Source: an uncultured Granulosicoccaceae bacterium (GTDB lineage Bacteria; Pseudomonadota; Gammaproteobacteria; Granulosicoccales; Granulosicoccaceae). Taken from it: a DNA stretch of 64,000 nt. Location of the stretch: assembly GCA_937998875.1 (NCBI GenBank), contig CALLBO010000004.1:1-64000 (forward strand), in the 5' to 3' direction. The translations under genes and the position numbers were made by a program. Below, one piece after another: positions 8,243 to 57,082 of this stretch (position 1 is its first letter; the number at the start of each line of letters is the position of its first letter). The notes under the pieces were generated by a model that did no database searches, was not told the DNA's origin, and saw only the letters and a list, made by a program, of their open reading frames with translations.

Positions 8243-8452
8243 TCTTAGAGGGATAAGCTTGCGTATCCATCAACGTGCAGCACGTCAGCCACGCTAATAC
8301 CCGGACTATCTAGCGATTTAATTCGCCGTAATATTCGCAGCGCTCGTTGCAAAGTTTGGTGAGCGCAAGCTTATCGCCCTACGAAAACAGAACATCATCA
8401 CTACTTGCATTCCGACAAACGGTTTCGTGTAGTTTTTCTGTTGCTCAAACAT
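8243..8452. repeat. Diverged type-A palindromic repeat between convergent cysG-like and hppD
   Basis: TTAGAGGGATAAGCTTGCGTATCCATCAACGTGCAGCACGTCAG ... AAGCTTATCGCCCTACGAAAACAGAACATCATCA... same plan and tail as the copies at 146-590. Confidence 0.8.
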
Positions 8453-30361: not shown

Positions 30362-30396
30362 GAATTAGACTGTGACTTATGTACTTCTACGTTTCT

Positions 30397-30826
30397 CGTA
30401 GGAGGATAAGCGCAACCGCTGCCAGGCTTTCACTTAAGCACTACCGTTGCACGCCATCAATATTCGATCACTCTCATGGCGCATCCACCGTGTCACACTA
30501 GAAATCGATTCTGAGCTTGCGTGTAGCCGACTCGATAGAAATTCATTGGCTCTTAACTTTTAATGTACACAGACCTGCTCAACCTGACGAGCGTGGCATT
30601 GGTGGATGCGCGTTAAGATCGTGCAAGCATTGAAACAGTTCAAACGATAGGTTTGTGCGTCCACCTCAACCGCAGATGAAGCTTATCCCCCCTACTTTGA
30701 TTGTAATACGTGCGCTTCAGCACCTCGTTCTCGTAGGGGGAATATGCGCACCACGCCAAACCTCGCCCTATAAGCCTGTACGCTTGCGCGCCGTCACTAC
30801 TTGAACAGACTCACGCGCATCTACCA
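30397..30826. repeat. Type-B palindromic repeat, L-R-L arrangement, between convergent M48 protease and pckA
   Basis: Outer-left CGTAGGAGGATAAGCGCA (30397), inner-left GGCGCATCCACC, inner-right TTGGTGGATGCGCGTTAAGATCGTGCAAG (~30599), outer-right GCTTATCCCCCCTAC (30681-30695), second left half 30732-30826. Confidence 0.85.
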
Positions 30827-48716: not shown

Positions 48717-49874
48717 ATGGCAAAACTCAACTGGGGTATCGTCGGTGGTGGCGAAGGCAGTCAGATTGGCCCGGCACATAGATTAGGCGCAGGCCTGGAT
48801 GGCTTATATAACTTCACCGCCGGTGCGCTCGATCACAGACCTGAAGAAGGCAAACGCTACGGGCAGGAACTTGGCCTGGATGCAGATCGTGCCTACGGCA
48901 GCTGGCAGGAAATGCTTGCAGGGGAAAGCAAACGATCCGACCGCATCGATCTGGTGACAGTTGCCACACCTAACTCCACGCACTTTGAAATAACCAAAGC
49001 CTTTCTGGAAGCAGGTTTTCATGTGTTGTGTGAAAAGCCGATGACCATGACAGTTGATGAAGGCGAAGAGATTGTAAGGGTCGCTAAAAGTACCGGTCGT
49101 ATCTGTGCCGTTAACTATGGCTATACGGGCTACTCACTGGTAAGACATATGCGTGCAATGGTAGCGCGTGGTGATCTTGGCAAAATTAGACTGGTTAAAT
49201 GCGAGTTCGCACACGGACACCATGCTGATGCCGCCGATGCAGACAACCCCAGAGTCAGATGGCGCTATGACCCGGCCCAGGCAGGTGTTTCTGCACAGTT
49301 TGCGGACTGCGGTATCCACGCCATGCACATGGCAAGTTTTATCACTGGCCAGGAAGTCACCAGGCTGTCGGCTGATATTGTTTCCTGTATTGCATCACGT
49401 GAACTTGAAGACGATGCGCTAGTTAATTTCCGTATGGACGGCGGTACCGTTGGCAGACTATGGACGTCTTCCGTTGCTATTGGCAATCAGCATGGTTTGT
49501 CTATTCAGGTGTTTGGGGAGAATGGTGGCTTGCGCTGGGCGCAGGAGCACCCTAATCAGCTGTACTACATGCCGTTGAATGAACGATTGCAGATAATCGA
49601 GCGTGGAGAAGGTGATCTATCACCGGAGGCGGATCGCACCAGCCGCGTTACCGTCGGGCATGCTGAAGGTATGCCATTGGCTTTTGCCAATATTTATAAG
49701 GATATTGCTGAAGCTATCAACGCTGAGAAGGAAGGTCGGGCGATGGATCCTGCAGCTAATCTTTATCCTCGCGCTGAAGATGGGTTGCGGTCTATGGCGG
49801 CTGTCGGGGCTGTTGCTGAATCTGGTGGCGCTGATGGTAAGTGGGTTGATGCTCGGCCGCCTATGTTTAGATAG
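48717..49874 (+). CDS. Gfo/Idh/MocA oxidoreductase, inositol dehydrogenase-like
   Basis: 385 aa; WGIVGGGEGSQIGPAHR; EAGFHVLCEKPMTMTVDEGEE. Confidence 0.87.
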   Translation: MAKLNWGIVGGGEGSQIGPAHRLGAGLDGLYNFTAGALDHRPEEGKRYGQELGLDADRAYGSWQEMLAGESKRSDRIDLVTVATPNSTHFEITKAFLEAGFHVLCEKPMTMTVDEGEEIVRVAKSTGRICAVNYGYTGYSLVRHMRAMVARGDLGKIRLVKCEFAHGHHADAADADNPRVRWRYDPAQAGVSAQFADCGIHAMHMASFITGQEVTRLSADIVSCIASRELEDDALVNFRMDGGTVGRLWTSSVAIGNQHGLSIQVFGENGGLRWAQEHPNQLYYMPLNERLQIIERGEGDLSPEADRTSRVTVGHAEGMPLAFANIYKDIAEAINAEKEGRAMDPAANLYPRAEDGLRSMAAVGAVAESGGADGKWVDARPPMFR

Positions 49875-49905: not shown

Positions 49906-50806
49906 CGTAGGGGGATAAGCTGACCAACCGCTAGACTTTGCCCTTAAATTCGTTACGAGTACATACAACCAATACTTGAACAATCTCAAGGCGCATCCAC
50001 CCTTTTATCTATACGGACGTGTTCAGCTTGACGAGCGTGACATTGGTGGATGCGCGTTAAGGTCGTGCAAGATTTCACAACCTTCCACTATAATATTTCG
50101 AGCCCACCACTACCACGGATGTGCTTATCCCCGCTACGTTGATATGTGATATGCGTAATTCTACAAGGTCCACGTAGGGGGGATAAGCGCACCAATCACC
50201 ATAACCTGCCCTTAAACTCCTTCCGTGTACACGCCACCAATACTTGAACAGCATCAAGGCGCATCCACCATTTTATCTATACGAAAGTGTTCAGTTTGAC
50301 GAGCGTGACATTGGTGGATGCGCGTGAAGGTCGTGCAGGATTTCACAACCTTCCACTATAATATTGTGAGCCCACCACACCACGGATGTGCTTATCCCCT
50401 CCGTTGATATGTGATATGCGTAATTCAACAAGGTTCACGTAGGGGGGATAAGCGTACCAATCACCATGACCTGCCCGTAAACTCCTTCCGTGTGCACGCC
50501 ACCAATACTTGAACAGCATCAAGGCGCATCCACCATTTTATCTATACGGACGTGTTCAGCTTGACGAGCGTGACATTGGTGGATGCTCGTTAAGGTCGTG
50601 CAAGATTTCACAATCTTCCACTATAATATTGTGAGCCCACCACTACCACGGATGTGCTTATCCCCGCTACGTTGATATGTGATATGCGTAATACAACAAG
50701 GTCCACGTAGGGGGGATAAGCGCACCAATCACCATGACCTGCCCTTAAACTCCTTCCGTATACACGCCACCAATACTTGAACAGCATCAAGGCGCATCCA
50801 CCATGT
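49906..50806. repeat. Tandem array of a ~267-bp type-B palindromic repeat (three units plus a half unit)
   Basis: CGTAGGGG(GG)ATAAGC starts at 49906, 50173, 50438, 50706 (spacing 267, 265, 268). Each full unit carries GGCGCATCCACC and TTGGTGGATGC(G/T)CGT(T/G)AAGGTCGTGCA(A/G)GATTTCACAA and GGATGTGCTTATCCCC; the last unit ends at GCGCATCCACCA. Confidence 0.95.
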
Positions 50807-50831: not shown

Positions 50832-52091
50832 CTAACTCCAGAATTCAATAATCGAATCTATAGTTTCACGCTGCTTGGCGATTTTAATTTCTTTGGAGCC
50901 ATGACAACTAATCACTTTGGGGAACTGGCGGCTGCAGTGCCTTGACCAAAGTGAAAACGTGTTAGCTCCTGTGTCTTGTACAACCAGCAAATCACCTGCT
51001 GCGGGTTCCGGTAGTTTTACAGAACGTCTTATAAAATCGCCACCAAAACAGAGTGGCCCTGCGATATCACATTTAATGGGCGGTCCATCTTTCGGGTTTC
51101 CATCTTTGTCTAGCAGAAACATCTCATGATGCCAGTCACCGGGGTTGTAGCACTCGCGAAGGAACATGTCTGCTCCCATATGCGTGATCAGGTTTGTGTT
51201 TTTACCGGCCGGCTTTACGTATTCTATGCGGCTAATGCCCCACCCTGCGTTGGCGTGAACGTAACGGCCGAATTCTGTAATCAGTGAATAAGTACCATCG
51301 AACAAACGTGGTAACGCTTCGCGCAGCGCAGATACGTAGGGTTCAATTTCAAAGGCTTGTTGATCATGATGGTAATTGACTGGAAATCCTCCACCAATAT
51401 TTAGGGTTCTGATTTTCGGTGCGCCGCAAAGTGTATTAATTTCATCAGCAAGCTCAAGAATCTTTCCAATGCCGTTGATGGTCGGGCTGAAGTCTGCAAA
51501 CTGAGACCCCAGGTGGACATGCAGGCAGTCAAGCTCATTAAATTCACAGCATGCGGCGATTATGGCTGCGCGATTAGATATCGGTTCGCCAAACTTTGAC
51601 TCACTGGTACCTACATTCATATAGCCGATAGAATCACTTGATACTAAAGGGTTTACCCGTAGACCTAGTCGTAGATTGCCTCCTGATCTCGGGAATCTGG
51701 ATAACTCGGATAAAGAGTCGCAGTTGATCCGAAGATCGGGGAATTCATTCAGTAGCTGTTGAATCTCTGATTCTGTTTTTGCCGGTGAATCGAAGACAAT
51801 CCTTTCAAGAGCAGTACCCGCGTGCTGTGCAAGCATGACTTCGGGCAAAGATGCGGCTTCCATACCTGCGCCGAGTTCGTGGATGTATTTGAGCACTGAG
51901 ACCAGTGGATTGGACTTTACAGCGACAGCGTGCAAACTATCTTCTGGAAACGCTGCAACCAACCGTTGATACCGGTCAGCTATAAACGACAGATCCTGAA
52001 ACAGTACAGCGGAATCGTTTTCATCGATCAATCCACTTGACATCGCCTCATGCCAAACCCTGACAACGTGATCCTGACTTGCTACCTCCAT
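50832..52091 (-). CDS. Fold-type III PLP decarboxylase (diaminopimelate/ornithine decarboxylase-like)
   Basis: 419 aa; LHAVAVKSNPLVSVLKYIHELGAGMEAAS, HLGSQ, LNIGGGFPV, GPLCFGGDFI. Confidence 0.85.
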   Translation of the reverse strand: MEVASQDHVVRVWHEAMSSGLIDENDSAVLFQDLSFIADRYQRLVAAFPEDSLHAVAVKSNPLVSVLKYIHELGAGMEAASLPEVMLAQHAGTALERIVFDSPAKTESEIQQLLNEFPDLRINCDSLSELSRFPRSGGNLRLGLRVNPLVSSDSIGYMNVGTSESKFGEPISNRAAIIAACCEFNELDCLHVHLGSQFADFSPTINGIGKILELADEINTLCGAPKIRTLNIGGGFPVNYHHDQQAFEIEPYVSALREALPRLFDGTYSLITEFGRYVHANAGWGISRIEYVKPAGKNTNLITHMGADMFLRECYNPGDWHHEMFLLDKDGNPKDGPPIKCDIAGPLCFGGDFIRRSVKLPEPAAGDLLVVQDTGANTFSLWSRHCSRQFPKVISCHGSKEIKIAKQRETIDSIIEFWS

Positions 52092-55007: not shown

Positions 55008-55240
55008 GACGAGCGTTGCACTGGTGGATGCGCGTTTAGATCGCACAAGTATTAAGACGGTTCAGACCTATAGTTTCTGCGCCCCCCCACAACCGCGGAT
55101 GTGCTTATCCCCCTTACGTTTATTTTGACATTTGTACTTTGAACCCCGTACACGTAGGGTGCTTACCCACTGCCAGACTTTCCCGTAAACCCTTTGTGTG
55201 TACGCTACCAATATTTGACCAGACTCAAGGCGCATCCACC
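55008..55240. repeat. Solitary type-B palindromic repeat in R-L order
   Basis: GACGAGCGTTGCACTGGTGGATGCGCG ... CCGCGGATGTGCTTATCCCCCTTACG ... CACGTAGGGTGCTTACC ... TTTGACCAGACTCAAGGCGCATCCACC. Confidence 0.85.
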
Positions 55241-55322
55241 GCCGCACTCTGCAAGTGCGATCGTATCTAATCGCCTCTCAGGTTTCGACAACGGCACATC
55301 AAACCGCAATTATTTGAGCAAG

Positions 55323-56936: not shown

Positions 56937-57020
56937 CATTTCAAAAGTTCGCTGCAGCGCGGAAAGGTTTAGGCCAGCCTGTCTACACTCACACAGACAT
57001 CAATCGATGCATGCAGTCGT

Positions 57021-57082
57021 CTATACTGGCAGTTGCCTATACTGGCAGTCAACTATACTGGCAGTTGCCTACATTGGCACGG
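57021..57082. repeat. 16-bp tandem direct repeats at the 3' end of the AKR gene
   Basis: CTATACTGGCAGTTGC / CTATACTGGCAGTCAA / CTATACTGGCAGTTGC / CTACATTGGCACGG (last one overlaps the AKR stop codon). Confidence 0.85.

Follow-up and report, generated by a model that had tools for sequence, protein, structure and literature searches.

REPs are small hairpin-forming DNA repeats that occur in many bacteria and are probably spread by a dedicated transposase; the inverted REP pairs of Pseudomonas, termed REPINs, are roughly 100 bp long. The closest described system to the locus studied here is that of E. coli with its REP/BIME sequences and TnpA-REP (GTAG-3 family, Di Nocera et al., 2013, PMC3733652; TnpA-REP group 2, PMC8266576). 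Reported loops of GTAG REPs measure 2–20 bp (PMC3733652, Table 1), and the partners in enterobacterial REP dimers have loops of different length (PMC3733652). E. coli TnpA-REP needs GTAG, the bulge and lower-stem positions and does not select loop sequence; the REP apex plays a non-specific structural role, and ablating the upper stem and loop impairs cleavage (PMC8266576). In Pseudomonas, the inverted pair is a non-autonomous, RAYT-associated dispersal unit (PMC3116915). REPs also serve as targets of insertion sequences (PMC1525189), as in the case of ISPpu9 (PMC8450116). Since REP survey methods discard repeats with unusual loops (PMC3733652) and the default loop limit of RepRanger is 11 nt (PMC12306157), forms with long loops would be missed.

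Here we describe a tandem array from an uncultured Granulosicoccaceae bacterium, located in a stretch of 64,000 nucleotides that was analysed as a whole (the window). Judged by sequence, each half-unit is a GTAG-type REP with an enlarged loop and each unit an inverted pair (BIME/REPIN). The array is a REP/BIME variant, and its long-loop form was not found described in the searchable papers, most subscription journals being excluded. It resembles the E. coli system in its GTAG end, GGATAAG...GCATCC lower stem and AA/GC bulge, in its inverted dimers, whose two REP types differ in their loops, and in its tandem arrays and extragenic sites; in addition, a congener RAYT matches the E. coli protein of PDB 4ER8. 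It differs in that one REP form has a 66–73-nt loop and in that no RAYT was detected in this genome. With the Pseudomonas REPINs it shares the non-autonomous, RAYT-associated inverted pair as dispersal unit, but the unit here spans ~230 bp from GTAG to CTAC and has an expanded loop. As with the insertion sequences in REPs, foreign DNA lies inside or beside a REP; however, the apex segment (66–73 nt) has no recognised insertion-sequence end and is common to many REPs in register, which ruled it out as an insertion-sequence copy.

Anatomy of the array and other REP sites in the window

The tandem array of a ~267-bp unit described in the original prediction was confirmed by TRF (49906–50804, period 268, 3.4 copies, 91% match, score 1509) and by repeat finding, which placed the unit starts 268, 265, and 268 bp apart. 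The array occupies most of the 957 bp separating the stop codons of two convergent genes, whose products were named from a reading of their translations.

48717–49874, + strand: upstream neighbour, Gfo/Idh-type oxidoreductase
49906–50803, no strand: whole array, seven long-loop REPs (BIME/REPIN units of 265–268 bp, 3.4 copies)
49906–50002, + strand: long-loop REP 1 (GTAG/head arm 49906–49920, loop 70 nt, tail arm 49991–50001)
50044–50138, − strand: long-loop REP 2, inverted partner, loop 67 nt
50139–50172, no strand: spacer between units, 34 bp
50173–50270, + strand: long-loop REP 3, loop 70 nt
50312–50405, − strand: long-loop REP 4, loop 66 nt, mutated GTAG end (TCCG, not CTACG)
50438–50535, + strand: long-loop REP 5, loop 70 nt
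50577–50671, − strand: long-loop REP 6, loop 67 nt
50706–50803, + strand: long-loop REP 7, complete; the array finishes at its tail arm
50832–52091, − strand: downstream neighbour, decarboxylase-like gene

Of these seven REPs, four are forward and three reverse. They keep the sequence and orientation of a head arm H, CGTAGGGGGGATAAGC, and a tail arm T, GCGCATCCACC, set 66–70 nt apart by the loop; the gap from T to T' is 43 nt and the spacer 34 nt. The predicted plan of outer and inner arms and a 34-bp spacer was as stated, save for small sequence corrections in four arms. Specifically, one G is missing from the first outer-left arm (CGTAGGGGGATAAGC), the first inner-left arm terminates in CACCC, the second outer-right arm is GCTTATCCCCTCCG without CTACG, and the third inner-right arm carries GCTCG. 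The array does stop exactly at an inner-left arm; this is the end of a complete REP, and other arrays here end likewise. The outer-arm core and the inner arm were each found 17 times in the window (expected 2.8 and 2.05, respectively), counts that no shuffle equalled.

Elsewhere in the window, H and T are joined through only two bases, GTAGGGGGGATAAGC-TT-GCGCATCCACC. This fused REP follows the E. coli plan, in which GTAG precedes a stem that contains GGAT/ATCC, has an AA/GC bulge and is capped by GC/GC. Of these features, the long half-units retain the GTAG end together with the lower stem, the AA/GC bulge and both GC pairs that close the stem. GTAG (as CGTAG) directly precedes the hairpin in most copies of either form and is lost in some, e.g., 50312–50405, and the bulge (GATAAGC/GCGCATC) is present in both forms. 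The short form, with a loop of 2–6 nt, lies within the described range of 2–20 bp (PMC3733652) and the long form with the same arms, at 66–73 nt, outside it; the array units are therefore filed as a REP variant and not as ordinary REPs. Thus, the earlier statement that no named family has this plan stands for the loop (2–20 bp in PMC3733652, Table 1) and fails for the affiliation, which is with the GTAG REP superfamily. The proposed pair of inverted REP-like hairpins (a BIME) with loops expanded to ~60 nt is supported, as the same arms occur TT-fused as an ordinary GTAG-type REP at >100 genome sites and RAYT genes adjoin short-loop REPs in congeners.

Four further REP sites were located in the window.

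30396–30826: second long-loop element, REPs 30396–30490 (+), 30600–30696 (−), and 30732–30826 (+), between convergent genes
55022–55241: third long-loop element, REP 55022–55118 (−) and degenerate REP 55153–55241 (+)
146–526: short-loop REP dimers of the ordinary form, two units 234 bp apart (head arm, TT, tail arm; partner loop GACA)
8243–8383: one degenerate short-loop REP dimer, between convergent genes

All five sites fall outside the selected ORFs of ≥120 aa, and three of them sit between convergent genes. A short tandem repeat was also seen at 57013–57079 (16-bp unit GCAGTCGCCTATACTG, 4.2 copies).

The outer arms form near-perfect inverted repeats ~230 bp apart and could be taken for the terminal inverted repeats of a DDE-transposon MITE, with the inner arms as a coincidental sub-terminal palindrome. 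We consider this hardly credible, given that the same outer and inner arms are directly fused as a ~30-nt hairpin at >100 sites, also next to RAYT genes, that mixed short-long dimers exist, and that inspection by eye revealed no target duplication at the array ends. Integron attC sites, CRISPR and retrons were considered from the layout alone and abandoned after discovery of the short form.

Distribution and probable origin of the long-loop form

Genome counts were derived from pattern and model searches. In the genome of the array, the short fused form gave 121 matches (≤3 mismatches, TT/CT fusion) with loops of 2–5 nt, and the reversed-pattern control gave none. The exact pattern of the long-loop arms was found 24 times in this genome and 16 and 17 times in two congeners, including a few overlaps of neighbouring REPs (controls 0). 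A covariance model, as proposed in the original prediction, was trained on 49 long REPs and run over 57 genomes with strict filters. At least 30 full-length long-loop matches with loops of 66–71 nt, two of them hybrids, were obtained in the own genome. Among the matches listed, full-length members (89–101 nt, E ≤1e-9) occurred only in this genome and in G004 and G005; those in the other congeners and in G017 were ~30-nt short-form matches. Several full-length members were absent from the training set (G005:C54, E 7e-16, C198 and C143; G004:C63 and C38; own C23), and the long form is therefore a family and not a product of the search pattern. Confinement to the window, which the original prediction had named as a possible outcome, was thus not found: the 121 short and at least 30 full-length long matches are dispersed extragenic copies, and the long form occupies about eleven separate loci in the own genome.

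The distance from a head arm to the nearest T in the fetched loci was bimodal, at either 2–6 nt (~160 arms) or 66–73 nt (~58 arms); the few other distances are explained by weak matches to the head arm or by neighbouring REPs that overlap. Exact-pattern searches of 14 congeners revealed no loops of 9–51 nt, and the range of 6–36 nt gave only two, both of 6–8 nt. Short REPs were found in about a dozen of the 57 related genomes and reach another genus (G017); exact short REP loci in a GTDB scan belonged mainly to MAGs of uncultured Granulosicoccaceae (Gammaproteobacteria). Because the long form is confined to three genomes while short REPs range wider, long-loop REPs are probably derived from a short-loop ancestor. 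The simplest history would comprise such an ancestor and one long-loop origin in the lineage of the three species.

Nearly all loci examined have the order H-T...T'-H' of an inverted REP pair, and some of these dimers join a long REP to a short one. Units are short-long on own contig C110 (H-2-T-56-T'-70-H'), long-short on C41, and long-long on C80 and in the window. Short dimers are uneven too, with a TT loop facing a GACA loop, in which they resemble the enterobacterial REP dimers (PMC3733652). In each of the two hybrids on C41 (L014:1621–1715 and L014:1317–1411), a whole short REP precedes an additional tail arm, placed at the long-loop spacing of 67 nt; these hybrids may preserve traces of recombination between the two forms.

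One long-long unit of G005 lies at the same place past the orthologous gene (86% nucleotide identity), with a longer centre (93 vs. 43 nt). Hence, the insertion after this gene probably predates the split from G005, and tandem growth in the own genome may be later. In other congeners, the available stretch downstream of this orthologue contained no REP and did not align visibly past the stop codon. G004 carries two short-long arrays on one contig, ~10 kb apart, that show 86–92% identity inside the repeats and have unrelated flanks; most of their ends coincide with REP boundaries. On sequence comparison, these arrays show dispersal of long-loop units, by RAYT or by recombination. In general, long-loop arrays occupy different loci with unrelated flanks. 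The arrays on G004 contigs C2 and C34 resemble two dispersed copies, but each lies at the end of a contig and the two may represent a single locus; they were therefore left out of the evidence for mobility. A precise empty site for the long form was not recovered (the C80 flank returned only repeat matches), so the long form may have moved by transposition or by recombination of repeats.

At three G005 loci (L119:83–98, L124:819–834, and L127:624–639), the head arm breaks off at an identical position and continues into one common sequence (CCATATA/GGGATAAGC); the contigs end within ~130 bp of the cut. One insertion sequence targeting this REP would probably account for them.

Sequence and fold of the loop

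The loops have strongly diverged, and mean column identity over the whole REP is 59%. The alignment shows two common, weakly conserved loop blocks, NNATCC just past the head arm and roughly TGCACGNTATCAATACTTGCAC ahead of the tail arm. Across the alignment, 96% of cells preserve the eight arm pairs, a value matched by shuffles because the columns hardly vary, and arm conservation is inflated, as many copies were found by an exact pattern that favours intact arms. Within whole arrays, pairwise differences affected 11% of arm sites and 21% of those elsewhere in the unit, a rough comparison given non-independent pairs, gaps and some approximate unit boundaries. Homology to the loop was found almost only inside long-loop REPs of the fetched loci. 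The loop was no better than shuffles as a carrier of an IHF site (2.59 vs. 2.49 mismatches in shuffles), and neither was its 5' end as a decayed tail arm.

The original prediction had implied a structured or small RNA; an mRNA-stabilising or terminating 3' element with a selected fold would be a related case. The lower folding energy of a single unit compared to shuffles (−83.6 vs. −65.2 kcal/mol, z −3.95) and the location of three of the five window REP sites between convergent genes agree with such a role, but palindromic DNA folds well on either strand anyway (z −2.63) and there was no Rfam match. The consensus fold of the 49 long REPs is the arm stem alone, with no conserved fold inside the loop. 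Compensatory changes, which were to be sought according to the original prediction, were found in none of the eight pairs. We therefore regard an RNA function, for which no support was found, as very improbable. The lack of compensatory changes does not weigh against a DNA element recognised by a protein; near-invariant stem pairs and the absence of a conserved loop fold fit protein recognition of DNA better than RNA.

The long-loop REP might also be a functional second partner and not a damaged one, its near-constant loop length of 66–73 nt and two blocks being kept for use by a RAYT or a host protein. Possible uses include differing roles for the dimer ends or avoidance of the destruction that a long perfect palindrome faces. 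We consider this doubtful.

RAYT transposases and possible mobility of the long form

The search for a RAYT gene suggested in the original prediction had a divided outcome. None was detected in the own genome (assembly 92% complete) by PF01797 or by the cognate RAYT, the latter without a positive control, and RAYT genes were found adjacent to short-loop REPs, or enclosed by them, in G004 (two copies, one at L089:677–1195), G010, G011, and G017. All four RAYTs checked matched NF047646, REP-associated tyrosine transposase (157–194 bits, cut-off 80), and that of G004 matched E. coli TnpA-REP (PDB 4ER8, E 1.5e-43). G004 carries long-loop REPs and several RAYTs together; the REPs flanking the RAYTs are mainly short-loop. 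The own genome and G005 both have many REPs and no detectable PF01797 RAYT, for which transposase loss or assembly gaps are possible reasons.

We consider it likely that the array is a tandem BIME/REPIN of long-loop GTAG REPs whose apex segment entered once and which were mobilised, we infer, by an E. coli-like RAYT. The repeats would be, or have been, non-autonomous and mobilised in trans as single-stranded DNA. The enzyme would read GTAG, the lower stem and the bulge and treat the apex as mere non-specific spacing; an insertion there could then be tolerated and spread. Tolerance of an enlarged apex is plausible by analogy, because the E. coli enzyme does not select loop sequence and the apex role is non-specific. 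The segment would have been acquired by a common ancestor of the three species and later drifted in sequence with little change in length, and tandem growth would have followed locally by recombination or replication slippage between units. Against this reading stand the lack of a detected RAYT in the own genome, the mainly short-loop REPs that flank the RAYTs found, and the impaired cleavage of an E. coli REP after ablation of its upper stem and loop (PMC8266576). Should the cognate RAYT tolerate an apex of 68 nt, cargo could travel in REP hairpins, a point directly relevant to substrate recognition by TnpA-REP and to why REP dimers so often pair unlike partners.

Alternatively, a REP may have lost its mobility on taking up the apex insertion, and copies would have arisen only via tandem duplication and recombination between arrays (gene conversion), with no transposase acting on the long form. 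The lack of a detected RAYT in the own genome, the mainly short forms flanking RAYT genes, the local growth of the array (one unit in G005, 3.4 here) and the divergence of most long forms, by which recent spread is not evident, are consistent with such dead elements. We nevertheless consider them unlikely, since the long form occurs at about eleven separate loci, divergence in the arms is about half that in the remainder of the unit (11% vs. 21%, a rough figure), and GTAG and the unpaired AA/GC bulge persist in most copies, with the bias of exact-pattern finding towards intact arms.

Strong matches to Y1 transposases (E <1e-35, open frames of 155–166 aa) were additionally seen in G006, G011, and G003 (L060, L058, and L055). 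Two of them have an internal stop, and they look IS200-like, unlike the RAYTs.
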